A DNA stretch of 64,000 nucleotides from Daucus carota subsp. sativus (lineage: Eukaryota; Streptophyta; Magnoliopsida; Apiales; Apiaceae). Below are positions 20,973 through 46,194 of this stretch, one piece after another; the first letter of the stretch is position 1, and every line of letters starts with the position of its first letter. The DNA lies in assembly GCF_001625215.2 (NCBI RefSeq), contig NC_030383.2:60502949-60566948 (forward strand). Direction: 5' to 3'. The notes beneath the pieces are model-generated. The model saw nothing but the letters and a program-made list of their open reading frames with translations. It was not told where the DNA came from and ran no database searches. The translations under genes were made by a program, and so were the position numbers.

Positions 20973-20993
20973 ATCTGTGTTACAAAGTCTTAG

Positions 20994-25926: not shown

Positions 25927-26635
25927 ATTTTCCGGAAGATTTTCTTCCTCTGCAGATTTTACTTAAAAAGCATCATAATGTCATCATTCAGCAGAAAAAA
26001 TGCTAGCCAATCATCAGAATATATTCATTAACATATTGGAATCCAGATTTTATTTGAATGGTCAGAGTCTTCGTAATAATTAGTAGAAAACATCTTACAA
26101 TAATATTCATATTGCTTAGATGCTACCAAAATTCAGAATGATGGTCCAAAAGTACCAGAACACAGTATCTAGTTGATACGTCACACCACGCACATCTTCC
26201 AAATGAGCTATATATGATGCACAACTGATGTAATCTTGACGACCAACCATTGTGCAATTGTTTATATACATTTTCTATTTTTCTCCGAAAAACAGTCATC
26301 TTCTATCCCGTCCAGTTTCCATAAGCCAAATCACGAACCTTCGTGGAATTACTGATAATGAAAAGCCTATCAGACAAAGGTCATCTGTTCCTAGTTTAAA
26401 ACTTGTATTGTACTTTATTCTGTCGGCCATCAGGTTGATTACTGAATAAACTAAGAGTTTGTTTCCAATGATTTTTAGTTTTGATGAAATTTATCATAAT
26501 CTAGTAGATACTTATTTGTCTGTTTACAGTTCAACTCCTAGTGTAAAGAGAATGATTACTGGTAAAAGGCACAACTATAAAGCTGGTTTTAGAACTCTAT
26601 CTATTTAACAAAACAAGTACTTCAGCTTGATAGAT
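25927..26635 (+). repeat. GRAS-A upstream block, duplicated at 36280-36960
   Basis: Shared landmarks in the same order are ATCATTCAGCA...GCTAGCCAATCATCAG, GATGCACAACTGATGTAAT, TACATTTTCTATTTTTCTCC and AAGCCTATCAGACAAAGGT. This shows that GRAS units were duplicated together with at least 0.7 kb of promoter. Confidence 0.8.
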
Positions 26636-28387
26636 ATGGCTGATGATTTCTCTTTAAACAGAGTGTTTGATACTCGAGGTTTTTATAAGCCTCCTGAAGA
26701 TCTTCTAAATGAGGCATTAATGGCTCAGCCAAAACAAATGGGAGTAGCTATTTCTGAGATCGACAAACCTGCAGGGGATGATCCTTCCACCACTGTTGTT
26801 AGGTCCGGCAGGCATCCAATAAACGTATCAGATAGGGGACTCCATCCATCTGGAGACCAACAAAAACTTGTCTTCAATCACTGGATGGATATTTATCTAA
26901 AAAGCCACAATGTCAATGCCATGCAACTGGATCAGTCGATACCTGAAGGCCAAAACCAGGAGCTAAGATCTGGAGACATTGGCTCTATCAATCTTAAACC
27001 CAATCCGGTTTCTAAAGAGTCTTTTCGGGTCCTTGGCAACTACAGGAATGAGAAGGCACTATTGAGGGAAGGTATATTAAGCAATCAAAATAGCAACAGT
27101 AGAGTGAGTGGCAAAAAGTTGTCGACAGAAGATGTAATTAGGTTGGCTGGAGAAAGATTCATTCACTTTTCAAGCAAAAAGCGTGATGGATTCACCAACT
27201 TTACCAATCCATATGATCCAGCTCTCATAAGTTTAACAGTAGAAGACGCGAAAATGGTGGACCTTGCCCACCTTCTTCTAGCTTCAGCTGAAAAAGTAGG
27301 CTACAAGCAGTTTGAAGCTGCAGACAAATTACTTGTGCATTGTGAAGCTATGGTATCTGAACGAGGTCATCCGGTTGAAAGAATCGCCTTTCATTTTTCC
27401 AAAGCTCTAAGAGAAAGAATCAAAACAGAACGAGAACATAATTTTCATAATTTAGGAAATGATCAGGGAAGATCTATTCGCGGACTCCCCACAGGTGTCG
27501 ATATCATTACTGCAGTGCTACATCAAGAAGTTCCATTCAGTAAGGTGATGCAATTTGCATCAATTCAAATGATACTAGAAAACCTTTCAATGGCAAAAAA
27601 AATCCATTTAATTGATTTTCAGCTTAGAAATGGAGTTCAGTGGACCCTTTTAATCCAAGCTCTCTCGGAAAGGAAAACCTTTCCAGTCAAGCTTCTCAAG
27701 ATAACTGCTATTCAGACATCAGACAAAGAGAGGACTGAGGATATCGGCAAGAAGTTGCAAAGCTATGCCAATTCCATGAATATTTCTTTTAAATTCAAGG
27801 TAGTTTCCGTGTTAAACATGAAAGATCTCAAGGTAGAGTTATTCGACATTAGGCCTGGTGAAGCTGTGGCTGTTTACTCTCCAGTTGTACTGATGACCAT
27901 GATTGGAAGGCCTCAAAACCTTCACACTGTATTAAAAGTAATACAAAGGCTGAGACCAGTAGTCATGATAGTCATGGAAGTAGAGGCAAATACTAACTCA
28001 CCAGCATTTGTAAATCGTTTTATTGAAGCACTTTTCTGGTACAGTGCATGGTTTGATTCCTTAGAAGACTGCATAGACCGAGACAATCAATGTAGAACGG
28101 AGGTTGAGAGAAGTTACTTTGGCCAAGGGATCAAGAACATTGTTGCGGCTGAGGGAGAGGACAGAACCACAAGGAGCGTGAAAATTGGCGTGTGGAGGAC
28201 ATTCTTTCAAAGGTTTAAAATGGTGGAAATTGACATCAGCAAGGCATCTGTGGATCAAGCCAACATGGTTCTTAAGCAGAAATTTTCTTGTGGAAGCTCA
28301 TGCACTATATCTAAGAATAGAAAGTGCCTAATGGTTGAATGGAAGGGAACGCCGTTACATTCTGTTTCAGCTTGGAGGTTCAAGTAA
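26636..28387 (+). CDS. GRAS family transcriptional regulator A (subtype MADDFSL)
   Basis: Intronless, 583 residues. The start is ATG 26636 (MADDFSLNRVFD); the frame is open a little further upstream but has no earlier ATG. The first 200 residues are variable. The GRAS domain begins near residue 208 with leucine heptad repeat I (VDLAHLLLASAEKV). The VHIID-type core is IHLIDFQ at 323-329, followed by the second leucine-rich region, a PFYRE-like block (RFIEALFWYSAWFD, 461-474) and the SAW motif WKGTPLHSVSAWRF at the C-terminus. There is no DELLA or TVHYNP motif. The canonical RVER is replaced (RTTRS). Genes of this kind are often labelled DELLA RGL1-like in asterids, but the clade function is unknown to me. 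Nuclear co-regulator expected. First of five tandem paralogues, closest to D. Confidence 0.92.
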   Translation: MADDFSLNRVFDTRGFYKPPEDLLNEALMAQPKQMGVAISEIDKPAGDDPSTTVVRSGRHPINVSDRGLHPSGDQQKLVFNHWMDIYLKSHNVNAMQLDQSIPEGQNQELRSGDIGSINLKPNPVSKESFRVLGNYRNEKALLREGILSNQNSNSRVSGKKLSTEDVIRLAGERFIHFSSKKRDGFTNFTNPYDPALISLTVEDAKMVDLAHLLLASAEKVGYKQFEAADKLLVHCEAMVSERGHPVERIAFHFSKALRERIKTEREHNFHNLGNDQGRSIRGLPTGVDIITAVLHQEVPFSKVMQFASIQMILENLSMAKKIHLIDFQLRNGVQWTLLIQALSERKTFPVKLLKITAIQTSDKERTEDIGKKLQSYANSMNISFKFKVVSVLNMKDLKVELFDIRPGEAVAVYSPVVLMTMIGRPQNLHTVLKVIQRLRPVVMIVMEVEANTNSPAFVNRFIEALFWYSAWFDSLEDCIDRDNQCRTEVERSYFGQGIKNIVAAEGEDRTTRSVKIGVWRTFFQRFKMVEIDISKASVDQANMVLKQKFSCGSSCTISKNRKCLMVEWKGTPLHSVSAWRFK

Positions 28388-29570
28388 GAAAACCCGAATC
28401 TCAGAAAGTAGTGTGCCTGTTTCTCTCTTATTTTACCATACTGCTGATCCTTAATTTGGTTTCGAAGTTCTTATGTATTTCTCAGGAGCTTCTATGGTAT
28501 CTGTTTTTAGAGTCACCACCAAATAAATGTACTTTGTAGCAGAAAATTAATCCAGTTCTTTACTGTATCAGATCAAATTAACGGGGTCTCGAGGCAGCAT
28601 GTAAAGTAAATTTAGTTTTACATCATAATCCAGTCGCAGGACTATCCATTTCACAACTTGATAAAAACAGTATGCATCCTGTTAATCAGAGATCATCAGA
28701 AACAACAATGAGTATATTTAGCCGATGAGCAAGTTAATGAAGCCACGCTACATAACATCATAAGTTTCTGCTGCATAAGAATATAGCAATAAGTTAATGA
28801 AGCCACACAACATAACATCATAAGTTTCTGCTGCATAGAATATAGCAATCTAGACATGGTCGATCAAACAAAATGTACACAGGTAAAATCAATTTTCTTG
28901 ACTCTCTGTTTTTTTTTTGGTAAGCACAAGTCTTGAATCCAGTAATATTATACACTCTGGTAGTTTCATATGAAATTCTTCTATTCTAGTCTTCTCTTAT
29001 AATTAGAGTTTGTCGATAACATTTATGTCGAGCTCCTAAAATCTGCAGTATACCCCTCTGTGGCGTAAACTAGTGTACATGTAAAAAAGTGACTTCGCAA
29101 AATATAACTGATTTAAATTATCAATTTTTCTGCGTAAAATTTAATAGAACTGTTTTGCCCAAATATCAACTCCTCCAAGTCGCTAACATGTCTCGCAGAG
29201 GTGGTATGAATGGGATTTTGCATAGGTAGAAAGCACAACTGCTGCAAATTGCAATCTTATCAAGTCCCAGTTATACTGGTGCTATTTAGGATCTCCTGAT
29301 ATGAAATTGAGCCATTTTATACATATTCAGTGAAAATCATTCCGCTTGAATCCTAGTTCAGTTTACTCGGCCAAGATTTTCTCATTGTGGAATCAATGAA
29401 AACGGCAAGCCTATCAAACAAAAGTCTCGTTGTTGATCTTTTATTCAAAAATATTTTGAATTTCTGGCTTGGGCCTAAAATGCTCCAATAAAAACAAGTC
29501 CAAGATGGAAAAGTTAAAAATACTTAGCGATGCCATGATAGCAATGCTTTTAAATTCATCTTATGCTGGT
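28388..29570. other. GRAS A-B spacer and 3' flank
   Basis: The first 300 bases match the 3' flank of GRAS-D at 39199-39470 (shared GCATGTAAAGTAAA and TACATCATAAT...CA). A 60-bp direct duplication lies at 28731-28849. The rest is plain spacer. Confidence 0.6.
28731..28849. repeat. 60-bp tandem duplication
   Basis: AAGTTAATGAAGCCAC...ATATAGCAAT occupies 28731-28790 and is repeated at 28791-28849 with two or three differences. Confidence 0.9.
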
Positions 29571-29576
29571 CGGGAC

Positions 29577-29743
29577 GGATTTAGGGTTCAAATGTGGGGA
29601 CACCAAACAAATTTTTGGAAAGCACCTATATTTTTAAGGGACATTTTTATAATTTTGTAAAATTTAGAATGTTGGGAAGATGTTAAAATTATTTTTAGAA
29701 GGGACACATGTCCCGTGCCTCTTACTAGATTCGTCCCTGATGG
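29577..29743. mobile_element. Small TIR element, family 3 copy b
   Basis: Ends GGGACGGATTTAGGGTTCAAA and ACTAGATTCGTCCCTG are inverted relatives. The interior (ACACCAAACAAATTTTTGG, TTTTGTAAAATTTAGAATG) matches copy a at 19603-19789. It lies in the GRAS-B upstream region. Confidence 0.65.
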
Positions 29744-29749
29744 TCGTGA

Positions 29750-30145
29750 CCTCAAATTTTTGTGAATGCTTGCTCATATCTTGGCATTGACAATATAGTT
29801 GCTATAAATATGTTATTCAGCTACATCAAACACTTTCATTCCGGCTGCATGTTTTGTTTCTAATGTTTGTCTAGACTAGTTTGCTAATATTATTGGGCAT
29901 TCTGAAGCACAATTTGGGTGATGAACCCATTAAACAATGTTCCATTGTCCTCATCAAAATTGGAGATATCACCAGCTACATCAATACAAATATTTTTCGA
30001 TGTTATTTTGACAGACATTGTTCTGGTGTTCAGAATATCACAACTTCTATCCCTCAAATCTCTGACACTAACTAATGTTTTTTTAAATCTCCTGAAACGG
30101 TCTCTGCAGTCATTTTATTAAGTAAACAGGGAATTCTGCTTCAAA
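29750..30145 (+). promoter_or_regulatory. Conserved upstream block of GRAS B, C and E (B copy)
   Basis: Landmarks ATATCTTGGCA, GATGA(A/G)CCCATTAAACA, GTCCTCATC and GATATC(A/G)CCA recur in the same order before B, C (33415-34053) and E (44075-44511). It holds the shared promoter and leader of this subtype. Elements inside are not resolved. Confidence 0.65.
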
Positions 30146-31873
30146 ATGTCCGATGATTTTGGGTTACCAAGTTCTCCTATCATTCAAACTGATTATAGGC
30201 CACCTGAGGTCCTTGAGAACGAATTTTATACTCGAGTAGAACAGATACCTACATCCACAGTGAACGAGCCTAGTGAGAAGAATCCAGTTTGCTCAGACCT
30301 TGGGTATGGGATTTACAAAGGAAAAATGACAGACACAGGACTAAGTGTTTTGGAGTATGATATGGAGAACTGGAACAAAGCTGATACATCAGAACACTAT
30401 GCTGGTGCATATTGTGAGCAACCTTCCAGCCTAGCTCCGGAATTAGACTTGCCAGTCCAGCAGAAGCCTGATTTTAGTTCTGCGACATTGTTTGAGAACC
30501 TCAGCAAATATGAAAGAGCGGGTAAAAAGTTGAAAGATGAACAATCAAGCAATCTAAGCGAAATTGCATCAGTTAATCAAAAATTGTCAACAGAAGAAAT
30601 CATAAGGGCGGCTGCAGAGAGGTACATCCAGTTCCCTAACAAAGATCCTGAATGTATCACCACTTTTATCCACCCACATGGTTCTGTTCTGTCAAGTCTG
30701 TCAAAGGAAGAATCAAGTGGCGTAGACCTAGCACACCTTCTTTTAGCCGCGGCTGATAAATTTTGGGATGGGGAATTTGATTCTGCTAGGAGATTGCTTA
30801 CCTGTTGTGAGTGCAAGGCCTCTAAATCAGGCAATCCAATTGAAAGGCTTACGTCATATTTTTCTGAAGCTTTGCAAGAAAGAATCCGTAGAGAAACAGG
30901 AACCAGAAAAATACTGATGGTGAGTGAGAACGACAGAGCCCCCAATAATGGCCTCTCAACAGGTGTTGACCAAACAGTTTTGGCAACCCATATGAAGATT
31001 CCATTCAGTAAGGCTTTGCACTTTGCATCAACGCAAACAATCTTAGAACATGTCGCGAGGGAAACCAAAATACACGTCATTGATCTTCATATTAGGAGTG
31101 GAATTCACTGGTCACCCTTGATACAAGGCCTTTCAGAACGGAAAGTTCATCCAGTTCAGCTCCTTAAGATAACAGCTCTCGATACAGAAGATAAGCAAAA
31201 GGTTGAGGACATTGGCAAGAGGTTAGAAAGCTTAGCCGACTCATTAAACATCACTTTTTCATTTGACGTAGTAACTGTAGATGACATGAGCCATCTAAAA
31301 AAAGAATTATTTGATGTTCAATCTGGTGAAGCGGTGGTTATCTCTGCTCCAACAATACTAAGGTCAATGATCCCGAGGCCTGATAAACTGGAAAATTTAA
31401 TGAGAGTAATCAGAGAACTCAGTCCCCTAATTATGATCATCTCTGAAGTAGAGGCAAATGATAACTCACCTTCTTTTATCAATCGCTTTGTAGAGGCACT
31501 TTTTTTCTATAGTTCATGGTTTGACTGCTTGGAAGATTGCCTGGACCGCGATAATCAGTACAGGATGAACCTTGAAAAATATTACTTTGGTTGTGGAATT
31601 ATGAATTCTATTGCAACTGAGGGAGAAGAAAGGATCACAAGAAGTGTGAAAATCGACGTGTGGAGATCATACTTTTCAAGGTTTCAAATGCTGGAAGTTC
31701 AAGTCCCAAAATCATCTTTCCATCTAGCTGAAATGGTTCTTGAGATGGAATTTTCTTGTGCAAGGTTCTGCACTCTCAGTAACGACGGCAAGTGTTTGAT
31801 GATCAGATGGAAAGGAACCCCAATGTTTTCACTTTCAACTTGGAAGTTTCAACAACCTCTAATATACTTTTGA
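30146..31873 (+). CDS. GRAS family transcriptional regulator B (subtype MSDDFGL)
   Basis: Intronless, 575 residues, starting MSDDFGLPSSPIIQTDYRPPEV. The order of parts is the same as in A: variable N-terminus, a helix-rich LSTEEIIRAAAERYIQF segment, heptad repeat I (VDLAHLLLAAADKFW), IHVIDLH core, ALFFYSSWFDCLEDCLDRDNQ and C-terminal WKGTPMFSLSTWKF (a STW version of SAW). A CECKASKSGNPIERL segment separates it from subtype A. Closest relatives are C and E, which share more than subtype A along the full length and in the promoter. Protein-protein regulator role in the nucleus is inferred from the family. Confidence 0.92.
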   Translation: MSDDFGLPSSPIIQTDYRPPEVLENEFYTRVEQIPTSTVNEPSEKNPVCSDLGYGIYKGKMTDTGLSVLEYDMENWNKADTSEHYAGAYCEQPSSLAPELDLPVQQKPDFSSATLFENLSKYERAGKKLKDEQSSNLSEIASVNQKLSTEEIIRAAAERYIQFPNKDPECITTFIHPHGSVLSSLSKEESSGVDLAHLLLAAADKFWDGEFDSARRLLTCCECKASKSGNPIERLTSYFSEALQERIRRETGTRKILMVSENDRAPNNGLSTGVDQTVLATHMKIPFSKALHFASTQTILEHVARETKIHVIDLHIRSGIHWSPLIQGLSERKVHPVQLLKITALDTEDKQKVEDIGKRLESLADSLNITFSFDVVTVDDMSHLKKELFDVQSGEAVVISAPTILRSMIPRPDKLENLMRVIRELSPLIMIISEVEANDNSPSFINRFVEALFFYSSWFDCLEDCLDRDNQYRMNLEKYYFGCGIMNSIATEGEERITRSVKIDVWRSYFSRFQMLEVQVPKSSFHLAEMVLEMEFSCARFCTLSNDGKCLMIRWKGTPMFSLSTWKFQQPLIYF

Positions 31874-33415
31874 TTGATTAAAACTCACCTCTTGTTCTAC
31901 CCCGATTCTCAGGGTATGCTGTACGCCTATTCTCATTTGTTTATCGTCTGTATCTTTTCTTTATTAACACAAAAGGAACTTAAAGATAAACCAAGCTGTT
32001 ATAGAATGACTGAGACATATATGTACAAGCTTTGGAGAAGCAGTTGCAGCTGGAGATAGTAAAAAAGATTTGCTAAGTGCTCACAAGATTTTTTTTTTTG
32101 GCGCTAAACAGATAGTGAATATTTTTGCTGACAAGTAGAACTCAAGTAGGCATGGTATTTGCAATAAAGGAACTAGGTTATTTCAAATTTCAATTCTCCA
32201 GACAGGAAACAGTAGTCATGAGGAAGATTACTCAACATTGTTCTATCTCTTCTGGCGGAAATTAGGATTTTATCCAATACTGTACTCAGTTCCTCCTGAT
32301 GAGATTCAAGTTTATATTCAGTTTTTTATCGAGATTTTTTAAGAACAGGATAAGATCTCAGCTCGGCGGGTTGGGGTGGGCTTGGCTTTCGCAAAAAATA
32401 CATGAGCAGTTTAGACTCTCGGCTGAGCGGTTTTGGGTTGGATCGGACTGACTTTTCCAATTCGGAATTTTTGCATTTATGAGTACTAGTAGAAGTCTAA
32501 CTATCGCACAATATACAGTTAACGTTGTAAACAAACCTAGACTGTCGATGAGAAACTCGATTCAATAAGCAACTAGATCTGAAATTACTCGGTTCGTTAA
32601 TGAACTCGAGTTGGAGCAATGAAGTTTAATATGCTTATCGAGTTGAACCGAGTTTAATTATTATATGATTTGACTTGACTCTATCAACTTGAACTTGTTT
32701 CAATGTCTTAAACTCAGCTCAACTTGATAAGCTATATTTAAAATAGGGTGCTCGTCCCCAGCAGTCATATGTTGGGGAGCCCGTAACCAACACACCGGTT
32801 TTCTAGCGTTTGATTAGCAAGCCGATGGTCGAGATTAAAAGTTGATTCCGCACCGTCCAACGCTTAAAACCACTGGATGTCACCTGTCCAATAGTTTTTA
32901 ATTGCTGGGTGTGTAAATTCTTTTTACTTGTTCACCAGTCCAACACTTTTTAACTGTTGGGTGTGTAAATTCTTTTTACTTGTCAAGCGCTTAAAAAGCG
33001 CCGGAAGCACGGTCACCATTTTTTATCGGATATAAACCACTCTTATCGGTCAAGTTTGACTTGACTCGAACTTAGCATCGACTCGACTCGATTCATGAAT
33101 AACTCATACATGACTCGGTCGATAATGATAAGCTAACCGAGTTTAGCTCGAGTCGGTAAGAAAAACTCGACTTGAACTCGATAAAGTGTTATTCTGTTCA
33201 GTTAACACATGCAGTTCACATATGCTCAAAAAATTCTAAACAGTGACACACTATGACATTTGCCGAAGGAATGTAGTACACAAGATAGTTGATTCTTACC
33301 TTTATATATTCAGAGAACTTCAGTTTTACGGAGAAATGTTAAAAACTAGCCTGTAAAAGCATATTGCGTAAGGTGGCTGGTTGGAAGCTGGTTCCACACA
33401 TAATACTGTTTTCTC
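31874..33415. other. GRAS B-C spacer with repeat relics
   Basis: The 3' flank is shared with C and E (TTCTCAGGGTATGCT-type sequence). From about 32340 to 33200 lie degenerate repeats rich in CTCGAGTT and CGTCCAACGCTTAAAA motifs; similar motifs recur at 46500-47580. Bases 33230-33300 resemble 41165-41235, an upstream part of the B/C/E unit. No gene. Confidence 0.5.
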
Positions 33416-33439
33416 GATATCTTGGCACCATTGACTATA

Positions 33440-33611
33440 GGCGTTTGATTCATGCTTAATGAGCCCGGTTAACGAGAATCGGAATATCAAACACACGTGT
33501 TGGTATTTGGATTAGCAACTTGTGACATGGAACGGGAACCTACTTGGAGGGTAAATCATTCCTTGCACTATCCTTGGGATACCCATTCCCATTCAAGATC
33601 CAAACGGCCCC
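33440..33611. mobile_element. MITE in the GRAS-C promoter
   Basis: GGCGTTTGATTCATGCTTAA at the left and CAAGATCCAAACGGCCCC at the right are inverted relatives. It interrupts ATATCTTGGCACCATTG...ATATATTTGC, a sequence that is continuous before B and E, so it is specific to C. Confidence 0.7.
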
Positions 33612-34053
33612 AATATATTTGCTATAAATTTTTTGTTCTGCTACATCAGGTACGTTCTTTGGGCGGTGTATTTTTATACTTGCTAAATATTCTTGAAAAG
33701 TCTAAAGCACTATTAGAGTATTAGGGTGATGAGCCCATTAAACATTAATCTTTCATTGTCCTCATCTCAAGATTGAAGATATCGTCAACTGCACTATACT
33801 AATATGTTGTTCGATGTTAGATTTAACCAGCATTGTTGCCGTGTTCAGAATATTCCTCAATCGATCTCTGAACACCAAGTCAGCTTCTGTCCTCTTACTA
33901 GTGTGTCCTATATAAATCTGCTTACATGTATCCACTGCATATGTTTTTTTTTAAAAGCTTCGCAGTAGAAACTTACTAGCATCTGAAAGCTGTGGTCTCC
34001 AGAGACAGTCTTTGCAGTCAATTTATCAAGAGAACAAAGAACCCTGCATCCAA

Positions 34054-35781
34054 ATGTCAGATGATTTCGGGTTATCAAGTCCTAATATTATTCAAACTGA
34101 TAATAGGCCACTTGAAGTGCTGGAAAACGATATTTATACTCGAGTAGAACATATATCTACATCCAAAGTGAAAGAACCTAGTGAGAGGAATCCGCTTTGC
34201 TCAGGCATTATGCATGGAATTAATGAAGGAAAGATGGAAGACAAAGGACTCATTGTTTCAGAAAATGGCATGAACAACAGAAACAAAGCCATCAGAGCAC
34301 AACACTACGTTGGTGCATACGGTGAGCAGCCTTCCAGCCGAGCTCCAGAAGTATACTTTCCAGTCAAGAACAAGGCTGATTTTAATTCTGCATCATTGTT
34401 TGAACTCCTCAGCCGATATGAAAGAGGGGGTAAAAAGTTGAAAGATGAAAATTTAAGCAATCGAAGCAAAATTGCAACAAGTGACCAGAAGCTGACAACA
34501 GAAGAAATCATAAGGGTGGCTGCTGAGAGATACATCCAGTTCCAAAACAAAGATCTAGAAGGTATCACCACTTTTATCCACCCACGCGGTTCTGTCCTGT
34601 CAAGTCTGTCAGTGGAAGAGACAAGAGGCGCAAACCTTGCGCACCTTCTTTTAGCCGCGGCTGATAAAATTTTGGATGGAAATTTTGATTCTGCAAGGAG
34701 ATTGCTTACAAATTGTGATTGCAAGGCCTCTAAATCAGGTAATCCAATTGAAAGACTTGCATCATATATTTCTGAAGCTCTGCAAGAAAGAATTCATAGA
34801 GAAAAGGGGAGCAGAAAAATAGGGATTGCGAGTGAGAAGGACAGAGCCCCTAATAATGGCCTCTCAACAGGTCTTGACCAAACAGTTTTGGCAGCCCACA
34901 TGAAGATTCCATTCAGTAAGGCTTTGCACTTTGCATCAACACAAACAATCTTAGAACATGTCACGACGGAAACCAGTATACACATTATTGATCTACATAT
35001 TAGGAGTGGAATACACTGGCCACCCATGATACAAGCCCTTTCAGAAAGGAAAGTTCATCAAGTTCAGCTCCTTAAGATAACTGCTTTAGATACAGAAGAT
35101 AAGCAGAAGGTTGAGGATATTGGCAAGAGGTTAGAAAGCTTTGCGGACTCATTGAAAATCCCTTTTTCATTTGACGTAGTAACTGTAGATGACATGAGCT
35201 ATCTAAGAAAAGAGTTATTTGATATTCAATCTGGTGAAGCGGTGGTTATCTTTGCTCCAACATTACTAAGGACAATGATCCCGAGACCTGATAAATTGGA
35301 AACTTTAATGAGAGTAATCAGAGAACTCAATCCTCTGATTATGATTATATATGAAGTAGATGCAAATGATAACTCAACTTCTTTTATCAATCGCTTTGTA
35401 GATTCACTTTTTTTCTACAGTACATGGTTTGACTGCTTGGAAGATTGCTTGGACCGTGATGATCAGTACAGGATGAATCTTGAAAAATATTACTTTGGCA
35501 GCGGAATTATGAATTCTATTGCAAATGAGGGAGAAGAAAGGATTACAAGAAGTGTGAAGATCGACGTGTGGAGATCATACTTTGCAAGGTTTCAAATGGT
35601 GGAAGTTGAAGTTCCAGGATCATCTTTTCATCAAGCTGAAATGGTTCTTAAGAAGGAATTTTCTTGTGCAAGGTTCTGCACTCTCAGTACTGACAGCAAG
35701 TGTTTTATAATTGGATGGAAAGGAACACCGATGTTTTCACTATCGACATGGAAGTTTAAACAAGCTCCATCATACTTTTGA
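34054..35781 (+). CDS. GRAS family transcriptional regulator C (subtype MSDDFGL)
   Basis: Intronless, 575 residues, the same length as B. The start is ATG 34054, matching the position in B and E; the frame is open upstream but has no ATG there. Motifs: LTTEEIIRVAAERYIQF, heptad repeat I ANLAHLLLAAADKIL, IHIIDLHIRSGIHW core, SLFFYSTWFDCLEDCLDRDDQ, EGEERITRSVKIDVW, and WKGTPMFSLSTWKF. Very similar to B and E by eye through the GRAS domain, less so in the first 150 residues. Leader sequence CATTTATCAAGAGAACAAAGAACCC is nearly identical to E. Its promoter alone carries the MITE at 33440-33611. Confidence 0.92.
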   Translation: MSDDFGLSSPNIIQTDNRPLEVLENDIYTRVEHISTSKVKEPSERNPLCSGIMHGINEGKMEDKGLIVSENGMNNRNKAIRAQHYVGAYGEQPSSRAPEVYFPVKNKADFNSASLFELLSRYERGGKKLKDENLSNRSKIATSDQKLTTEEIIRVAAERYIQFQNKDLEGITTFIHPRGSVLSSLSVEETRGANLAHLLLAAADKILDGNFDSARRLLTNCDCKASKSGNPIERLASYISEALQERIHREKGSRKIGIASEKDRAPNNGLSTGLDQTVLAAHMKIPFSKALHFASTQTILEHVTTETSIHIIDLHIRSGIHWPPMIQALSERKVHQVQLLKITALDTEDKQKVEDIGKRLESFADSLKIPFSFDVVTVDDMSYLRKELFDIQSGEAVVIFAPTLLRTMIPRPDKLETLMRVIRELNPLIMIIYEVDANDNSTSFINRFVDSLFFYSTWFDCLEDCLDRDDQYRMNLEKYYFGSGIMNSIANEGEERITRSVKIDVWRSYFARFQMVEVEVPGSSFHQAEMVLKKEFSCARFCTLSTDSKCFIIGWKGTPMFSLSTWKFKQAPSYF

Positions 35782-36279
35782 TTGTTTGATTAAAACATAC
35801 CTCTTGCTCTACCCCTTTTTCAGGCTCTGCTATACTACTATACTCATTTGTTTACCGTCTGTATTTTTCCTATATAAATGAAAGGAACCTAAAGATAAAC
35901 CAAAATGTTATAGAACAACTGAGACATCTATGTATAAACTCCATATATGTCCTACATTGTTTGTAATCTCATCATCTCAAGATGAGGAGGAATCGTCGTT
36001 TACGTCGTTTAACAACTATAAGCAAAAGGATTAATTAATTGAAGGGCAGTCTGTTAAATCAAATTCCTTGTTTCTTTTACCTAGTTCAATGGTACCAAAT
36101 CTTAGGTTATAGTGCTTCCACATTGTGATCATAATTCTGATGAATAATATATGATCCTATTGGACCCTTTCTCTAACACCTTATGATTTTAGATGGCCGG
36201 TTACTTAACATGAAATACCAAGAACCGTTGATAAATCAATAGAAGATTGAAGTACTAATTTAACTCAGTAATCTAATTT
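35782..36279. other. GRAS-C 3' flank and spacer
   Basis: The first 100 bases parallel the 3' flanks of B and E. Nothing else recognised. Confidence 0.45.
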
Positions 36280-37260
36280 TTTTTTTGTCTTCTGCAGTTT
36301 ATATTATACCATCATATTCCATCATTCAGCAAAAAAAAGCGCTAGCCAATCATCAGCAATTTGGGAATACTCTGCAGGTTCCGTTTGAATTCTCAGATTT
36401 TTTATCATAATCAGTAGAAAGCATAAGACTATGATATTCATATTTCTTTGATACTTGCATCCATCAAAAGTAAGAATGGTAGTCCTAAAGTGCCAAAAAC
36501 TAGTATCTAAGAGACTGATATTTGACCCTTTACATTTCAACGGTAGCACATATAGGCACATTCTGTAATAATACGTCAGACTATTTTAACATGTCGCCAT
36601 CTCCCTTAAAAGCTACGTATGATGCACAACTGATGTAATATTCAAGACCAACTATTGTGCGGTTGATTTTATACATTTTCTATTTTTCTCCGGAAACCTG
36701 TCATCTTCTATCCTCTGCAGTTTTCAGAAGCCAAATTACAATCCTTTGTGGAATTATTGGTAATGACAAGCCTATCAGACAAAGGTTTCCTGTTCCTTGT
36801 TTTATAAATTGTATTGTACTTGTATTCTGTCCGTCATCGGGGTGATTACTGAAATAAACTAAGATCTGTGTTTCCTATGATCTTTAGTACTAGTAAACAA
36901 TATTATAGCAAGATGTATAATTAGTTAGATACTTGTTTGTCTGTTTACGATCACACTCATAGTGTACCGAGAACAAGTACTTTGGCAGATGACTTCTCCT
37001 TAAATGATGTTTTGATACTCAAGGTGTCTATAAGCCTAATGCAGATCTTCTGAAAACCATTAATGAAAATAGATATTTTGGGATCAACAAACCTGCAGGG
37101 GATAACCCTTTCACCACTGTTATTAGGTCTGGCAGGCATCCAATAAACGTAGCAGGTGCAAGAGTCCCCCGTTTAGAGCCCAAGAAAAATGTGTTTTCAA
37201 TAACTGAATGGATTTTTATCTAAAAAACAACAGTGATAATACCATAAAACTAGATAAACT
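36280..37260 (+). pseudogene. Truncated GRAS subtype-A copy: promoter plus broken 5' coding end
   Basis: Bases 36280-36960 repeat the promoter of A. From 36980 the sequence follows the start of an A-type gene (GCAGATGACTTCTCCTTAAA, later GGCAGGCATCCAATAAACGT and GGATTTTTATCTAAAAA), but it lacks the ATG, carries frame breaks and stops, and ends after about 270 bases. The GRAS domain itself is absent. Then a second leader-like segment (37260-37470) leads into gene D. This is the remnant of a duplication in which D kept its own coding sequence beside a dead A-like 5' end. Confidence 0.8.
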
Positions 37261-37473
37261 AATATCTCTGTGTTTCCAATGGTTTTTAGCGGCAATGAGA
37301 CATATCATAGTCCATAAATCCAACAGCAATCAGTATAAACAGTTAGATCCTAGTTTGTCTGTTTGTAGGTGAACTTGTACTGTGAAGAGAACAATTGCAA
37401 TAAAAGACATGGTTATAAATCTACTCTCTGAACTCTAGTTCGATAAGAAAACAGGTAATTCTGCTATATAAAA

Positions 37474-39198
37474 ATGGCAGATGATTTCTCTTTATTCAGC
37501 GTGTTTGATTCTCAAGATGTTCATAAGCCTCTTGAAGGTCTTTTAAATGATATGTTAGTCACTCAACAAACGCAAGTATCCAGTTTTGGGAGTGACATAC
37601 CTGGAGGGGTTGATCATTCCACCACTGGCATTAGGTCGGGAAGGCATCCAATAATCATTGAAGAGCCAAGAGTCCATCCTTCTGGAGACCAAGAAAAATG
37701 TATTTTCAGCAATAGCAATGTCAGTACTATACCAGAACCTGATCAGTTGATATTAAAAGGTCAAAAGTATGAGCAAAGTTCAAAAGATAGTGATTTCATT
37801 CATCTTATGCCTCATAAAAATTGTACAGAATCTTTTCGAGTCCTTGGCAACTATGGAAAAGGGAAGGAAAGATGCAGGGAAGATATATTTAGCGGTCACA
37901 GTAGCAAAAATACCGTGACCGACCACAAATTAACAACAGAAGAAATAATGAGGGTGGCTGGAGAAAGATTCATCCACTTCTCTAACAAAAGGTTTGACGG
38001 GATCACCAGCTTTATCCATCCAGATGGTTCAGCTCTGTCATGTTTGTCGTCAGAGGACACCAGAATGGTGGACCTTGCCCACCTCCTTTTAGATTCAGCT
38101 GAAAAAGTGGGAAATAAGCAATTTGATGCTGCCAACAAATTGCTTCTGCATTCTGAAGGTAAGGTAACTGACTCAGGTCATCCAGTCGAAAGAATAACTT
38201 ATCATTTTTCTAAAGCTCTACGAGAAAGGATTACAGCAGAAACAAGAACCAGTGTAAATCAGAGAGAAACTGATCAAGGAAGAGATTACAGCGGACTCTT
38301 CTCAGGTGTTGAGAACACTTGTTTGGTACTTCATCAAGCAGTTCCGTTCAGTCAAGTGATGCAATTTGCATCAATACAAATGATACTGGAACATGTTGCA
38401 ACAAGAAAAAAAATCCATTTAATTGATCTTCAACTTAGAATTGGAGTTCAGTGGGCACCTTTAATACAAGCTCTTTCGGAAAGGGAAACCTTTCCAGTTC
38501 AGCTCCTTAAATTAACTGCTCTTCAGACGACAGACAAAGAGAAGGCTGAGAATATTGGCAAGAGGTTGCAAGACTATGCCAAGTCTTTGAACATTTGTTT
38601 TATTTTCAAGGCAGTGTCCATTGTAAACATGAAAGATCTCAAGGTAGAATTATTTAACATTAGACCAGGTGAAGCTGTGGTAGTTTACTCTCCGATTGTA
38701 CTGAGAGCTATGATCCCAAAACCTGAGAACCTGCAAATTTTACTAAGAGTGATACAGAGGATGAGACCTAAAATCATGGTAGTCAATGAAGTAGAGGCAA
38801 ATCATAATTCACCATCATTTGTTAATCGTTTCACAGAAGCACTTTTCTTTTTCAGCGCTTGGTTTGATGCACTGGAAGACTGCATAGACCGAGACAATCA
38901 GTACAGAATGAATATTGAGAGAAGTTACTTTGGCCGAGGAATCCAGAACATTCTTGCAACTGAGGGCGAGGGCAGAATCATAAGGTGTGTGACTATGAAT
39001 GTGTGGAGGGTATTCTTTCAAAGATTTAAAATGGTAGAAATTGACATCAGCAAAGCATCTATAAATCAGGCCAACTTGGTCCTTGAGAAGAAATTCTGTT
39101 GTGGAAACTCCTGCAATATATATAAGAATGGAAAGTGCCTAATTGTTGGATGGAAGGGAACCCCATTGCATTCTGTTTCAGCTTGGAAGTTCAAGTAA
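37474..39198 (+). CDS. GRAS family transcriptional regulator D (subtype MADDFSL)
   Basis: Intronless, 574 residues, start MADDFSLFSVFDSQDVHKP. It pairs with A: shared GRHPI, ESFRVLGNY, EEIMRVAGERFIHFSNK, VDLAHLLLDSAEKV, IHLIDLQ core, ALFFFSAWFDALEDCIDRDNQ, and C-terminal GWKGTPLHSVSAWKF with a canonical SAW. A TATATAAAAATGG context surrounds the start, so the TATA-like string at 37466-37471 is in the leader and not a promoter. The 3' flank is homologous to that of A and carries a Mutator-type insertion. Nuclear regulatory role is inferred from the family only. Confidence 0.92.
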   Translation: MADDFSLFSVFDSQDVHKPLEGLLNDMLVTQQTQVSSFGSDIPGGVDHSTTGIRSGRHPIIIEEPRVHPSGDQEKCIFSNSNVSTIPEPDQLILKGQKYEQSSKDSDFIHLMPHKNCTESFRVLGNYGKGKERCREDIFSGHSSKNTVTDHKLTTEEIMRVAGERFIHFSNKRFDGITSFIHPDGSALSCLSSEDTRMVDLAHLLLDSAEKVGNKQFDAANKLLLHSEGKVTDSGHPVERITYHFSKALRERITAETRTSVNQRETDQGRDYSGLFSGVENTCLVLHQAVPFSQVMQFASIQMILEHVATRKKIHLIDLQLRIGVQWAPLIQALSERETFPVQLLKLTALQTTDKEKAENIGKRLQDYAKSLNICFIFKAVSIVNMKDLKVELFNIRPGEAVVVYSPIVLRAMIPKPENLQILLRVIQRMRPKIMVVNEVEANHNSPSFVNRFTEALFFFSAWFDALEDCIDRDNQYRMNIERSYFGRGIQNILATEGEGRIIRCVTMNVWRVFFQRFKMVEIDISKASINQANLVLEKKFCCGNSCNIYKNGKCLIVGWKGTPLHSVSAWKFK

Positions 39199-39471
39199 GA
39201 GAAGCCAGCACTTCTGAAAGTTGTGATCTCAAATTTTTCTTACAACTGTTGATATATTCTTATGCAATTCTCGCGGTCTGCTGTGTTTTCTTCAAATTTC
39301 TCTTTATATAGTCACCAACAAATATATTATGCCCTTTGCGGCAGAAGTAAATCCAAGGTCTATATTATATCAGATCAAATCGCTGGGATCTTAAGGTAGC
39401 ATGTAAAGTAAAACTATCATTACATCATAATTCAACACAGGGCTATCTGTTCTGTAGCTTAATAATAACTA

Positions 39472-40384
39472 GAGTAAATTACAAGGGTGTGGCTATAGTT
39501 TACACCGATTTACAAAATTGTGACTGAATTTTAAAAATAACAAAAATGTGGCTGACATTCGACTCAGCCTTTCAAAATGTTGGCGGATCATAACGGAGCA
39601 GAGGATATTTATGTATTTTCTGAAAAAATTCTCCTCCCAATGTAAAAACTTTGAACATCCTAATTAATACCTGCAGCCTTGCAGGTTAACATACTCAATT
39701 CAAGAAATGTTTGTAAGGCTCATGTTCGTCATTGTGCGGCTGGCTGGCTCGTCGAGCTCATTGACGACGGTGCCCACGGGGGTATCCAGTGGCGAAACTC
39801 GCCAAAATCGGGTGTTAACTCCAATATCAATCATCAATCACTTTTTTCATATCCAAAACCTCGAAACCCCCTCTTCACCCAGACCCTAATCATGGCTTTA
39901 TACATACGGTCACGTATGTACACGCACTGGGTGAGATGAGAAAAACAGAGGAAAATACAGATGTTAATTTGGTGATACCAATAAGTCCATGCAACAACTG
40001 ATGTAGATTAATACACAGATGTTCTTGCTAATTGCTAACCGAGGGTTGCATATGTCAGACCAAACCCACGCTCTGGAGAAGCAAGTTTGTTGTTGCAATG
40101 GTGAAGATGGGTCAAATCGGTGTACTCACCGGCTCTGCCGCATGGGAGAATAAATATGAAAAGAAACAAAAGGGAGATGAAAGGGTGGAGAAGAGGAAGA
40201 GACGTAAATACCCTTTCAGTTTTTGTTTTTTTAATTAAGTTAACGGTTCAAAATTAATGTCTTTAACGGCGGCCAACATTTTAAAAGATGGATTCGAATG
40301 TTAGCCACATTTATGCTATTTTTAAAATTCAGTCACAATTTTATAAATTCGTATAAACTATAGCCACAACCCTGTAATTTACTC
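39472..40384. mobile_element. Mutator-like (MULE) non-autonomous element with 9-bp target duplication
   Basis: The termini GAGTAAATTACA and TGTAATTTACTC belong to inverted repeats of about 110 bp. TAATAACTA flanks both sides exactly (39463-39471 and 40385-40393), the 9-bp duplication expected of Mutator elements. The interior includes a GC-richer piece at about 39715-39830 with open frames on both strands but no recognised protein; it could be a captured gene fragment. No transposase. Confidence 0.92.
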
Positions 40385-40393
40385 TAATAACTA

Positions 40394-41610
40394 TGTACAT
40401 AATATTATACAGAATTAACAAGAAGAATAATAATGACTATGTCTAGCTGAAGAGTAAGTTTTTGGTGCATTTCATCTAAAAACTTAAGGTGTTAGAGGAA
40501 AGTCCCAACATAATCAAGACTTCCCCTCAATTGTCTGATTGAATAACAACTACCAATACCAACAACTACCCGGTACCCATACCTATATATATATTCAAAT
40601 TATATAAATGGAGGTGGAGACATGGAGGGACTTGGACCCATCCTAAACCTAGCTCAGATACCATGTCAAGTGATCAGTATCCTAAAACCTCAAAGTATTA
40701 GGGAAAGGCTTTTTACCAGGATCATTATATTCTGAAATGCTGCATAACATCTGCCAAGATAGACACAGAGGTAGTTAATTTTATTTATTTAATAGGCTGT
40801 GTTTGAGAGAATGAACTTGAAGGGGATATTGGTTAGATATAACACAGAAGTGTCGATCCTTATAAATTCATTTCAGTATGTACTGCATGTTTATCAGCAA
40901 ACTTATAATTAAATTTTACAAAAGATAATGTCAGGCTAGGTTCAATGGAAAATGTCAGGTGTATGTTATATTAGAACGTTCAAGGGCGAGATTATAACAA
41001 ACTACAGCAGAGTTGATATTTGGGCATAACACATATCGCAGTACTACTAGGACTCTAGGAGTCAAGTACAACATGATAAACAGACAAATGGCAATTTCAG
41101 CATAATATAAAGTGAGATGCTGGATCAAGGGAACAGGCTAACAGATAACAAAGCGGTGACGCACTGTCACATTAGGCGAGGGAGTGCAGTACAGAATACA
41201 AAAGACGATTGATTTTTACTTTAATATATCTAAAGGACGTCACTTATATGAAGGCGGAACGGCAGACATAATCTGTGAAAGCTTGTGGAAAAAACTGAAA
41301 AAAAATGCAGGCGCCTGCACAATCTTTCAGTGTAGCATCATGCTAACAAAGTTCGCGGTGTTAAACTAATACCACTCTAGTTCAGAGAGGGACAAGTTCA
41401 AGACAATGTTTTTTCATAATAATTTATACGAGTACATAATCAAATCAAATATCACCATATATACATGTCGGGCAACACCTACTAAACGATGTTGCAATAG
41501 GTCGAAGTCAAGCACTTCAATTGCGACATTCAGGACCATGCCGGGGTGCGCGACGGAACATTACCCATATTTTTGAGGGGCACATTGTGTATGTACGTGT
41601 TCTTTGAAAA
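40394..41610. other. Spacer between GRAS D and E
   Basis: Bases about 41150-41300 resemble the far upstream region of C (33230-33330), part of the B/C/E duplication unit. The remainder shows nothing clear. Bases near 41540-41590 (GGGGTGCGCGACGG) may be the edge of an old insertion whose other edge is near 43140. Confidence 0.4.
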
Positions 41611-41615
41611 AAATA

Positions 41616-41907
41616 CTCCCTCCGTCTCAATTTATAGGTCCATTTTGGAATAAACACACATATTTGGTTAGATGAAATTTTATCTCATGTATCATTAATT
41701 AGTGCATTGATAGGTGAGAATATTGTTGAGTTTCAAAAAAATCACAATAAATATAAGGATTTAGTGCATTGAGAAATGAGAATAATGTTGAGTTTCAAAA
41801 AAATCACAATCAATATGTAGATAAATTTGTATTGAAAGGAGAGAGAGACAAGTATTTTGGGACAAATTTTTTTCCCAAACTGGACCTATAAATTGAGACG
41901 GAGGGAG
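41616..41907. mobile_element. Stowaway MITE, well preserved
   Basis: CTCCCTCCGTCTCAATTTAT and ATAAATTGAGACGGAGGGAG, flanked by TA. The interior has a doubled GAGTTTCAAAAAAATCACAA motif. Confidence 0.9.
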
Positions 41908-42496
41908 TATTATCTTAGCAAAATTAAAAAATGTTATATTAGTCTTAATGATAAAGTAATTTATAATTTTTTCTTTAAATAAAATTAATAAGAAAAATAT
42001 GTAATATGAATATTAATCTATTTGATTAATAATTTAGACTACTAATTTAAATAATTAAATACAACGGTCAACACTAGTTTTCGTTTAGACAACTTGTACA
42101 TTATATTATTTTTAATAATTCAATGTTTGGATATTTAATTTATTTTAAATTAGATTTCTATTTAATGTTTATATATTCAATGAAAATGTTGAATTAGAAT
42201 TAATTAATCAGTTAGTTAAAGTTTTACATCAAAGTTTAATAAATTTTACATTTAAATTAGTTTTTGTATCATTATATTTTATTATTATTATTATATCTTA
42301 CTATTTTTGTACTTGTTTTTCTAGTTTTTTAATTTTTTATAATTATGTCAAAATAATAAAAAAAATGATTGATTTTTATTATTTTATATAATTACTGTTA
42401 TTTTTTTGTTGTTGGGACACATCTATACTATACTATAAAATGCCAACATGGTATAATTTGTAACTAAAAGTCTACATGTAGATATCTATTAAACAG

Positions 42497-42688
42497 TTTC
42501 ATATACTAAAAACACTTGTTATATATATTAATATCTTTTTAAATATAATTTATAATTGGTTGAAAAAAGGTGAAACTACTGTTAATAACATATTTCATAT
42601 ACTAAAAACACTTCTTATGTATATTAATATCTTTTTAAATATAATTTATAATTAATTGAAAAAAGGTGAAACTACTGTTAATAACATA
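42497..42688. repeat. 96-bp tandem duplication
   Basis: TTTCATATACTAAAAACACTT through AAACTACTGTTAATAACATA is repeated once with a few changes. It lies in an AT-rich zone (41910-43420) where nothing else is recognised. Confidence 0.85.
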
Positions 42689-43424
42689 TATTAATATTAA
42701 AAAAATACTTATAGATAAATGTATAGCTAATTATAAATATACAATTTTGAATATCTTTTGTCTAAAATACATATAAATAATTGGAGACGCTACTTTTTAA
42801 TTATAGCGTATTCTACTCGAAATTTAACTCTAACGTGTCATTACAAACATGAACCATTACGTAACATATGAAGATATATGAAATATGAAAATTTGATTTA
42901 AAATTAATTGAATAATAAACTGTCACATATTAATATCAGAAAAATATTTATAAATAGATAATAAATTGTGAAAGCTAAATTTCCGTTAGAAGATATAATC
43001 AGTTGGTTAATATAATTCAATTAAAATTCAATTCATTAATACTAAAATACTAATAAAATAATGTTAAGATTTAAATTATAATTAATAAATTATGAATTAT
43101 ATAACCGCCCACAGGTTAAAAGGCTAGTATTTTTAATTTTGCGCGGGGCACCTGCCTAGAATCTCACATACTGCCCTGACGACATTGCGGTGGTGGCAAG
43201 CCTGGCCAAAAGCTTTAATTAGGACATTATAGTGGCAAGAAACCACAACGATGAGGCATCCTACAACAATGATATAGTATTCTACACTGGAATCAAATTC
43301 TGTTCATTCAAACCGTAAATATTGTTAGTTCAAACGTTATAATCAAGGGTGATCTCTTGAACTCTATATAAGAGGGTCTATATGGAACAATGCCTTATAT
43401 TTATTTGTCTTATTATAAATAAAA

Positions 43425-43615
43425 GAGTAAAATGCAAAGTGATGACGAGCTTTATAGGGCCACTTTTTTTTGGAAAAAACTAATTGTTTTCTCAAAAGAA
43501 GTGGCCATTAGCCACCTTTTTAATGTATTAAAAGAATATATGATCACCGTATTGCAAATTTGAAATTCTGGCCACCAAAATGAAAAAAGATAAAATTCGG
43601 CTTTATACTTTACTC
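43425..43615. mobile_element. Small Mutator-type MITE with 9-bp target duplication
   Basis: Termini GAGTAAAATGCAAAG and CTTTATACTTTACTC are inverted. TAAATAAAA flanks both sides (43416-43424 and 43616-43624). 191 bp, non-coding. Confidence 0.85.
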
Positions 43616-43624
43616 TAAATAAAA

Positions 43625-44511
43625 TCTATATAATTATTCAAAATATAAATGTACAAGTAGATTGTGGAACTGAGAATATTGCAACTCAATCAGGATGCCA
43701 TGTTTTTTCCCCAAGTGCCAAGACACAAGAAGCCATAAGACAATGCTTTTATATTCATCAGCTCTCTGTCTTCTTCCTTGTGTGCACCTCAATCAAATTC
43801 TTTTTAGTACCTATCAATTTTCATAGACAGGAGTTATATAATATTCATCTGCCAACATGCATGCCTGCTACATCTACAAAAACTTAGCCTGGAACTAATG
43901 AGGATTACTTAAAATTCTTACAATGAGAAAGAGACATGCAGCCTAAAGAGAAAGGAATGATCAAAAATCCAGACAATAGTACAAGGATTGTTATATTTTA
44001 TTTCTAAACTATACAAATAATTCTCCAATCATTAGAAAATCTGGGAATGTCCCTAGACCATATCAGAGATTTCTCGATATCTTGGCACCATTGCCAATAT
44101 ATTAATTTGTTGTCTTTCCGGCTGTATGTTTGTCTGTAATGTTTGTTGAAATCAGTTTGCTGATATCCCTGTGCGACTAGAACACTATTAGGATGATGAA
44201 TCTATTAAACAATGTTCCATGGTCCTCATCTCGAAATCGAAGATATCACCAACTAGATTTATAAATCTTTTTCCCCAATGTTAGATTTGACCAGCATTGT
44301 TGCCGGGTTCAGAATATTTCTCAATCTCTGAACACTGAGTCAACTTCTGTCTCCTTACTAGTGTGTCCTATAAATCTGTTTGTTTGTATCCAATGTATAT
44401 GTTTGTTTTAAGGCTTTGCAGTATAAACTTATTATTATAATCTGAAAGCTGTGGTCTCCAGAGACAGTCTCTGCAGTCATTTATCAAGAGAACAAAGAAC
44501 CCTGCATCCAA
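43625..44511 (+). promoter_or_regulatory. Upstream region of GRAS E
   Basis: From about 44065 it contains the B/C/E block (TCTCGATATCTTGGCACCAT, TTGTTGCCG(T/G)GTTCAGAATAT and ACTAGTGTGTCCTAT(A)TAAATCTG shared with C). Before that there is plain spacer. Confidence 0.6.
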
Positions 44512-46194
44512 ATGTCCGATGATTTTGGGTTATCAAGTCCTAATCTTATTCAAACTGAATATAGGCCACTTGAAGTGCTTGAAAAAGAAATTTATACTCA
44601 AGCAGAACAAGCATCTATATCCAAAATAAATGTACCTGAAGAGCGGAATCTAGTTTCCATAGACCTTGGGCATGATATAAACAAAGGAAAAGAAGCAGAC
44701 ATGGGATTTGGAGGTGCACATCATGAGCTCCCATGCAGCCTCTCTCCAGAAATAGACTTCCCACTAAAGAATAAGCCTGATTCAAATTCTGCGTCATTGT
44801 TTGAGCTCCTCGGCAGATATGAAAAAAGGGGTAAGAATTTGGCAGATGAACATTGCAATCCAAGCAGCGAGATTACCACAAGTAGCCGGAAGCTGTCAAC
44901 AGAAGAAATCATAAGGGTGGCTGCAGAAAGATACATCGAGTTCCCTGGCAAAGATCTTGACTGTGTCACCACTTTTATCCACCCATATGGTTCTGCCTTG
45001 TCAAGTCTGTCACTGGAAGAAACAAGAGGCGCAGACCTAGCACACCTTCTATTAGCTGCAGCTGATAAAATTTGGGATGGGAAAATTGATTCTGCAAGGA
45101 GATTGCTTATGCGGTGTGAGTGCAAGGCCTCTAAATCAGGCAATCCAGTTGAAAGACTAGCATCATATTTTTCAGAAGCTCTGCAAGAAAGAATCTTCAG
45201 AGAAACAGGAAGCAGAAGAATTAAGATGGTGAGTTACGAGGCTAGAACCCCCAATAATGGCCTCTCAACAGGTGTTGACAAGACAGTTTTGGCAACCCAT
45301 GATGACATTCCATTTAGTAAGGTGATGCAATTTGCAACAACGCAAACAATTTTAGATCATGTCGCAATGGAAACCAATATACACATCATTGATCTTCATA
45401 TTAGGAGTGGAATTCACTGGCCACCGATGATACAAGCCCTTTCAGAGCGGAAAGCTCATCCAATTCAGCACCTTAAGATAACTGCTCTCGATACAGAAGA
45501 TAAGCAAAAGGTTGAGGATATCTGCAAGAGGCTAGAAAGCTTTGCCAACCCACTGAACATCGCTTTTTCATTCAATGTGGTGACTGTAGATGACATTCGT
45601 GACCTAAAGAAAGAACTATTTGGTATTCAAGCTGGTGAAGCGGTGGTTATCTATGCACCAACAATACTAAGGACAATGATCCCATGGCCTGATAAACTGG
45701 AAACTCTAATGAGGGTAATTGGAGATATTCGTCCCCTACTTATGATCGTACAAGAAGTAGATGCAAACGACAACTCACCTTCATTTATCAATCGCTTTGT
45801 TGAGGCACTTTTCTTTTATAGTACATGGTTTGACTGCTTGGAAGATTGCCTGGACCGCAGTAATCAGTACAGGATGACTCTTGAGAACAATTATTTTGGC
45901 AGAGGAATTATAAACTGTATTTCAACTGAGGGAGAAGAAAGGATCACAAGAAGTGTGAAGATCGACGTGTGGAGATCATACTTTGCAAGGTTTCAAATGG
46001 TGGAAGTTGAAGTCCCAAAATCATCTCTTCGTCAAGCAGAAATGGTTCTTAAGAAGGAATTTCCTTGTGCAAGGTTCTGCACTCTGAATAATGACGGCAA
46101 GTGTCTAATAATCAGATGGAAAGGAACACCGATGTTTTCACTTTCGACCTGGAAGTTTCAAGAAGCTCCATTATACGTTGAATTGTTTGATTAA
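44512..46194 (+). CDS. GRAS family transcriptional regulator E (subtype MSDDFGL)
   Basis: Intronless, 560 residues, start MSDDFGLSSPNLIQTEYRPLEV. The N-terminal variable region is about 18 residues shorter than in C, through loss of the segment around INEGKMEDKGLIVSENGMNN. The rest follows C: LSTEEIIRVAAERYIEF, ADLAHLLLAAADKIW, IHIIDLHIRSGIHW, ALFFYSTWFDCLEDCLDRSNQ, WKGTPMFSLSTWKF. The C-terminus differs: the TGA of C (TACTTTTGA) is out of frame here, so the protein continues with VELFD to a TAA at 46192-46194. Last gene of the array. Confidence 0.92.
   Translation: MSDDFGLSSPNLIQTEYRPLEVLEKEIYTQAEQASISKINVPEERNLVSIDLGHDINKGKEADMGFGGAHHELPCSLSPEIDFPLKNKPDSNSASLFELLGRYEKRGKNLADEHCNPSSEITTSSRKLSTEEIIRVAAERYIEFPGKDLDCVTTFIHPYGSALSSLSLEETRGADLAHLLLAAADKIWDGKIDSARRLLMRCECKASKSGNPVERLASYFSEALQERIFRETGSRRIKMVSYEARTPNNGLSTGVDKTVLATHDDIPFSKVMQFATTQTILDHVAMETNIHIIDLHIRSGIHWPPMIQALSERKAHPIQHLKITALDTEDKQKVEDICKRLESFANPLNIAFSFNVVTVDDIRDLKKELFGIQAGEAVVIYAPTILRTMIPWPDKLETLMRVIGDIRPLLMIVQEVDANDNSPSFINRFVEALFFYSTWFDCLEDCLDRSNQYRMTLENNYFGRGIINCISTEGEERITRSVKIDVWRSYFARFQMVEVEVPKSSLRQAEMVLKKEFPCARFCTLNNDGKCLIIRWKGTPMFSLSTWKFQEAPLYVELFD

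Follow-up and report, generated by a model that had tools for sequence, protein, structure and literature searches.

A tandem array of five carrot GRAS genes with an N-terminal motif match to the SCLB/Pt20/MIG subfamily

We analysed a 64,000-nucleotide stretch of the carrot genome (Daucus carota subsp. sativus, assembly GCF_001625215.2, contig NC_030383.2, positions 60,502,949 to 60,566,948; hereafter the window) and found that it carries five intact single-exon GRAS genes, all on the + strand between window positions 26636 and 46194, in the order A, B, C, relic, D, E, the relic being what is left of a further gene. The N-termini of all five proteins match the published motif of the OG-SCLB/Pt20/MIG subfamily, to which, by this motif, the genes would belong. 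We consider it probable that the array is a tandem SCLB/Pt20/MIG cluster grown from an old A-B pair, with proteins that work as MIG proteins reportedly do.

Two types of gene make up the array. Genes A (26636-28387, 583 amino acids, PF03514 at 8.4e-87) and D (37474-39198, 574 amino acids, 2.1e-83) are A-type and share the signatures MADDFSL, IHLID and SAW. Genes B (30146-31873, 575 amino acids, 2.5e-79), C (34054-35781, 575 amino acids, 1.2e-81) and E (44512-46194, 560 amino acids, 6.8e-80) are B-type, C being the sister of B and E the outgroup to both; their alignment shows MSDDFGL and STW in all three, with IHVIDLH in B and IHIIDLH in C and E. Each of the five proteins has the full-length domain that characterizes the GRAS family, covering positions 2-374 of the 374 in the PF03514 profile in one open frame with 267-292 bits (cut-off 27). 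Protein identity is 61 % for A-D, 79 % for B-C, 70 % for B-E and 71 % for C-E, and drops to 41-53 % between the types. No further GRAS pieces were found at E<=1e-3 when the five proteins were compared by tblastn to both strands of the window. The original prediction, made from the letters of the sequence, had described five intact intronless GRAS genes on one strand, in two interleaved subtypes with these signatures, and a broken A-type piece between C and D. This anatomy is borne out, the broken piece being real and small (about 36983-37255).

Outside the window, protein B had no match in a plasmid collection (tblastn, protein B only), and two short peptide patterns each gave no confirmed relative among 86 pattern matches in genome_contigs and 171 in viral_contigs. 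A text search of the literature for five sequence signatures of the array gave no match, and a further one on mycorrhiza-induced GRAS clusters listed 15 of 43 papers, whose titles were all unrelated. An AlphaFold model built from the five-sequence alignment reached a mean pLDDT of 40 and was left out of any fold search.

For the subfamily assignment, 26 of the 29 GRAS orthogroup motif strings of Cenci and Rouard (PMC5332381, Table 2) were aligned to the first 210 residues of each protein. The SCLB string, a 50-residue N-terminal motif in that table, matches all five N-termini with z between 5.9 and 8.8 (A 8.8, B 6.7, C 6.0, D 5.9, E 6.2; 0/300 shuffles each). In the array proteins the match lies directly before the GRAS domain and is carried above all by the LSTEEVIRIAG-like half of the motif. 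None of the 25 other strings matches all five proteins, those of RAM1, RAD1, SCL3, SCR-1, SCLA, PAT, SHR-1, SCL4/7, NSP2-1, DLT and SCL32-1 included, and z above 3 was reached with single proteins only (DLT with E, z 3.8, 0/300 shuffles; SHR-1 with D, z 3.5, 1/300). The HAM-I motif gives z of 0.2-1.2 in the five proteins and is not recognized. The original prediction knew of no role for this clade; the five N-termini match OG-SCLB/MIG, a group with a reported mycorrhizal role.

Published work says the following of this group. SCLB is described as a clade exclusive to arbuscular mycorrhizal (AM) hosts that includes MIG1 (tomato, PMC6429219). In petunia, 9 of 11 Pt20/MIG genes are induced in mycorrhizal roots, and the same source gives the group as absent from Arabidopsis and as tandem in Medicago and petunia (PMC5549340). 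MIG1 is also one of the orthogroups that carnivorous plants are reported to lack (PMC12529035). A review describes MIG1 and MIG3 as working in opposite directions, the first, with DELLA, driving the expansion of cortical cells and the second, with SCL3, opposing it (PMC8996055), and MtGRAS4 and MtGRAS7, placed in the MIG1 family, are reported to have promoters active mainly in arbuscule-containing cells of Medicago (PMC6399340). By analogy, the array proteins would most likely be regulators that form complexes with partners of DELLA or SCL3 type and may adjust how cortical cells grow in roots that house AM fungi, with some members favouring this growth and others counteracting it; we infer partners, tissue and process from these published relatives.

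The array is a further example of an already known kind of tandem GRAS group and not something new. It resembles the Medicago truncatula MIG1-MIG3 cluster and the petunia Pt20/MIG genes in having GRAS genes of one subfamily in tandem and in their repeated, reportedly species-specific duplication (PMC5549340); for those genes mycorrhizal induction and a role of MIG1 are reported. In cacao and coffee the two dicot SCLB sub-clusters are described as tandem neighbours, a pair older than the rosid/asterid split (PMC5332381), and cacao TCM_021350/351 are given as tandem on chromosome 4 (PMC9858872). As in the array, two SCLB subtypes are thus adjacent in Theobroma cacao (TCM_021350/TCM_021351) and Coffea canephora (Cc03), but cacao has a single SCLB pair where the array has two A, three B and one A relic. 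The cassava Pt20 groups MeGRAS22/23 and MeGRAS29/30/31 (PMC6990482) likewise are in tandem and in the subfamily that the motif indicates for the array; in the same study, 12 genes silent in every tissue tested fall in five subfamilies, Pt20 among them. The premise of the original prediction that GRAS genes are usually dispersed does not hold for this clade, of which tandem arrays have been published, yet the published work also includes a birch study counting a single SCLB gene (PMC9638169) and a Poncirus GRAS study with no tandem GRAS genes (PMC11900033).

An element of about 103 bp is common to the upstream regions of A, the relic and B, on the + strand in each case. Detected by nhmmer at all three places, and ahead of A by blastn and shuffles as well, it lies at 26281-26384 for A (ending 252 bp before the ATG), at 36691-36792 for the relic (82/99 aligned bases identical to A) and at 29325-29428 for B (ending 718 bp before the ATG; 70/101 identical to A). 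Single-sequence nhmmer searches gave E-values of 1.1e-5 to 4.9e-5 for B against A or the relic, and of 1.4e-26 and 9.4e-34 for A against the relic. With 500 shuffles of the B spacer for each comparison, none of the 319 and 400 that yielded any alignment reached the observed score. The A-B identity of 70/101 exceeds that at fourfold sites (49/93, Fisher p 0.019), a comparison biased in the element's favour because the element was picked for its match. Upstream of C nothing scored above chance, and upstream of E a weak AT-rich match to the relic flank only (36.8 bits; 2/485 shuffles as high) was not counted. The homology of C and E to B starts only about 310-355 bp ahead of the B start codon, so these copies may have arisen without the element.

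Shared by A and B and somewhat more conserved than fourfold sites, the element is a concrete candidate for control common to the two old subtypes. It is conceivable, in a speculation to which we give very little weight, that A and B form a long-kept two-part module with opposing members, as reported for MIG1/MIG3, under an ancient shared upstream element, possibly with a short conserved upstream reading frame; C and E would then lack the element and have escaped the shared control and become separately regulated B-type regulators setting cell size in fungus-housing cells. Short upstream frames do occur in the element of A (MKSLSDKGHLFLV, 13 amino acids, 26358-26399) and of the relic (MTSLSDKGFLFLVL, 14 amino acids, 36763-36807), and over that of B (31 residues beginning MKTASLSNKSLVV, 29396-29491). 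After the start they have a common SLS-D/N-K core, and a conserved upstream open reading frame is possible.

The 1.5 kb upstream of the five genes and the relic were also scanned for nine patterns (CTTC core, MYCS, P1BS, AW-box, GCC-box, CYC-like core, W-box, MYB-type site and AATTT), with first-order resampling as control and 54 tests in all. The W-box (TTGACY) occurs seven times upstream of C (32554-34053) compared to 2.1 expected (P 0.01, in one of the 54 tests).

The relic (36983-37255, + strand) corresponds to about the first 90-100 codons of an A-type gene, has TTG at the position of the ATG of A, and carries deletions. Its 5' flank (36282-36981, + strand) is homologous to the 5' flank of A at 25940-26560, and the A-homologous 5' flank of D itself is only about 200 bp long (from about 37249). 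Over 268 columns the coding part has a p-distance of 0.209 to A (confidence interval (CI) 0.164-0.257) compared to 0.328 to D (CI 0.272-0.392), and as it is nearer A than D, the simplest reading is that this piece is what is left of a third A-type gene, directly before D. The proximal 5' sequence does not decide the matter (82 columns; 0.341 to A, 0.354 to D). We also considered whether the fragment arose from D by internal duplication; the coding part, nearer A with non-overlapping intervals, rules this out. The relic requires one more A-type copy, which the first scheme of the array's origin had left out.

The two types are far apart. Synonymous divergence (dS, Nei-Gojobori) between A-type and B-type genes is 1.1-1.4, near synonymous saturation, compared to 0.49-0.51 for A-D, 0.25-0.28 for B-C, 0.32-0.33 for B-E and 0.40 for C-E within the types. 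The A-B split is old and probably took place before the rosid/asterid split, contrary to the original prediction of one lineage-specific expansion. The published SCLB tandem pair of cacao and coffee is the likely ancestor of the A-B pair, and as such a pair predates the rosid/asterid split, the five genes need not form one lineage-specific clade. Within the array, codon maximum likelihood (ML) favours the topology ((A,D),(E,(B,C))) with a log-likelihood of -6503.4, 21 log units above the two alternatives for the B group (-6524.6 and -6524.9). Local duplication would have enlarged the old adjacent A-B pair: a second A-B pair would have given D and E, an extra copy of B would have given C, and a third A-type copy, later truncated, the relic before D. 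Gene conversion between copies was tried as a further process and rejected on the longest matching runs (20 tests; third positions, p 0.386 or higher); with all sites, the lowest p values were 0.022 (C-E) and 0.027 (A-C).

The coding sequences bear marks of constraint. The ratio of nonsynonymous to synonymous rates (omega) is 0.432 overall, the GRAS domain giving 0.352 and the N-terminus 0.655. Taken together, the terminal branches reject omega=1 (likelihood ratio 54.9), as do A (p 0.003) and C (p 5e-7) singly; with the GRAS domain only, omega=1 is rejected for A, C and D (p 0.016, 4e-6 and 0.023, uncorrected). Omega is 0.48 on terminal and 0.35 on internal branches, a difference that is not significant (p 0.057). 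From ML branch lengths, neutral evolution would have produced between 6.0 (B) and 19.2 (A) stop codons per terminal branch; none is seen (P <=0.0026 each), so none of the genes drifted freely as a pseudogene along the whole of its branch.

Several points weigh against the reading of the array as a functioning SCLB/Pt20/MIG cluster. The placement is drawn from a single published motif consensus and not from a direct alignment with SCLB or MIG proteins, and of the consensus, 42 residues align in B and 16-22 in each of the other four proteins. LISCL, which stands next to SCLB in the published tree (PMC5332381), has no string in the motif table, nor have several other orthogroups, and the scan hence leaves LISCL unaddressed. 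Pt20/MIG is termed dicot-specific (PMC5549340), whereas SCLB is also reported from Amborella and date palm, with tandem duplication as the chief route of its expansion there (PMC5332381); the two names may therefore denote different sets. In Poncirus, which has two MIG1 orthologues, MIG1 is reported as not up-regulated in mycorrhiza (PMC6184448). In the promoter scan, none of the CTTC core (0/6), MYCS, P1BS and AW-box shows enrichment in any of the six upstream regions. Finally, D, E and B taken one at a time do not reject omega=1 (p 0.09, 0.15 and 0.23), which makes relaxed constraint possible. A different membership would follow if the five genes belonged elsewhere among the GRAS subfamilies, to LISCL or to an offshoot resembling DELLA, and shared with SCLB just a general pre-GRAS motif. 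LISCL is known for tandem arrays as well, and DELLA proteins, which have the GRAS domain in common with the array proteins, are their nearest matches by score among solved structures (173 bits for A, 153 for B). We find this improbable: the DELLA and TVHYNP motifs that DELLA proteins have are absent from the five N-termini (four DELLA strings, z -1.0 to 2.2), and a miR171 site of HAM type has no match with three or fewer mismatches in the window. The SCLB string found none of 177,635 PDB sequences at E<=10, DELLA chains with an N-terminus included. As a control, the DELLA-1 string found six PDB DELLA sequences plus three weak unrelated ones (E 0.18-1.2), but the control is only partial because many PDB GRAS chains lack the N-terminus, a further point on the debit side of the SCLB assignment.

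Two other explanations accept membership in SCLB/MIG and differ in how the array arose or why it persists. One, compatible with the reading we prefer, is that the region is prone to duplication and that drift has done the rest, the extra copies, B, D and E especially, being relaxed, partly redundant and heading for loss like the relic, an A-type copy already dead. The free-ratio omega of 0.70 for B, 0.57 for E and 0.54 for D, none of them rejecting omega=1 singly, points this way, as does the N-terminal omega of 0.655, and constraint may have loosened in these three genes. The adjoining DC1 genes are likewise arranged as X Y X' Y', plus one additional fragment, and as this pair duplication occurs without GRAS genes, the form of the array need not be due to selection. 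The missing stop codons, the low omega of the GRAS domain with its rejection of omega=1 for A, C and D, and the lack of a significant difference in omega among branches (free ratio versus one ratio, p 0.15) all speak against drift, which we regard as rather unlikely. Of the selection for retention that the original prediction proposed, the retention of coding capacity is supported by the stop-free frames, and omega is below 1 on terminal branches jointly, though this is not shown for D, E and B taken singly. The other explanation replaces the copying of an A-B pair by independent single-gene duplications, the alternation of types being due to chance or later rearrangement. The homologous units are indeed gene-sized (B-C about 29791-32031, B-E about 29836-31962, A-D about 26441-28668). 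Moreover, dS(A,D) is 0.13 higher (95 % CI 0.008-0.271) than dS(B,E) and dS(C,E) averaged, and nothing in the D-E spacer matches the A-B spacer at 28669-29835, both of which weaken the pair-duplication model. Nevertheless the gene order A-B...D-E combined with the topology takes fewer events under pair duplication, and the D-E spacer measures 5.3 kb with an AT-rich stretch, so that the unmatched part could have been lost or replaced; single-gene duplication seems to us possible, if somewhat doubtful. The scheme of the original prediction, an ancestral A-B pair duplicated and followed by extra copying of B, agrees with the topology, fits less well with the dS excess and the spacer mismatch, and leaves out the relic copy.

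Taken as an SCLB/Pt20/MIG cluster, the array would tie a set of GRAS genes for which no role had been stated to a symbiosis gene group. With two A, three B and one relic, it makes a compact case for asking why this subfamily keeps duplicating in tandem.

The array is flanked on one side by pieces of kinase and WRKY genes and an unnamed 282-residue open reading frame, and on the other by a TBL/PMR5-like gene and four DC1 genes. The WRKY piece is the C-terminal part of the domain (14339-14926, - strand; PF03106, E 1.5e-12). The four DC1/C1_2 (PF03107) genes at 52873-58913 on the - strand form the duplicated pair X Y X' Y', in which 52873-54048 matches 56435-57608 (81 %) and 54118-55029 matches 58010-58913 (78 %); the extra fragment is at 55508-55754. 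Two direct repeats of about 580 bp, 98 % identical and about 870 bp apart, lie at 59863-61896 and resemble a small LTR-type (long terminal repeat) element, but the 10 flanking bases show no target-site duplication. At 20991-22672, within AT-rich sequence, about 840 bp are directly duplicated in tandem with 98 % identity.

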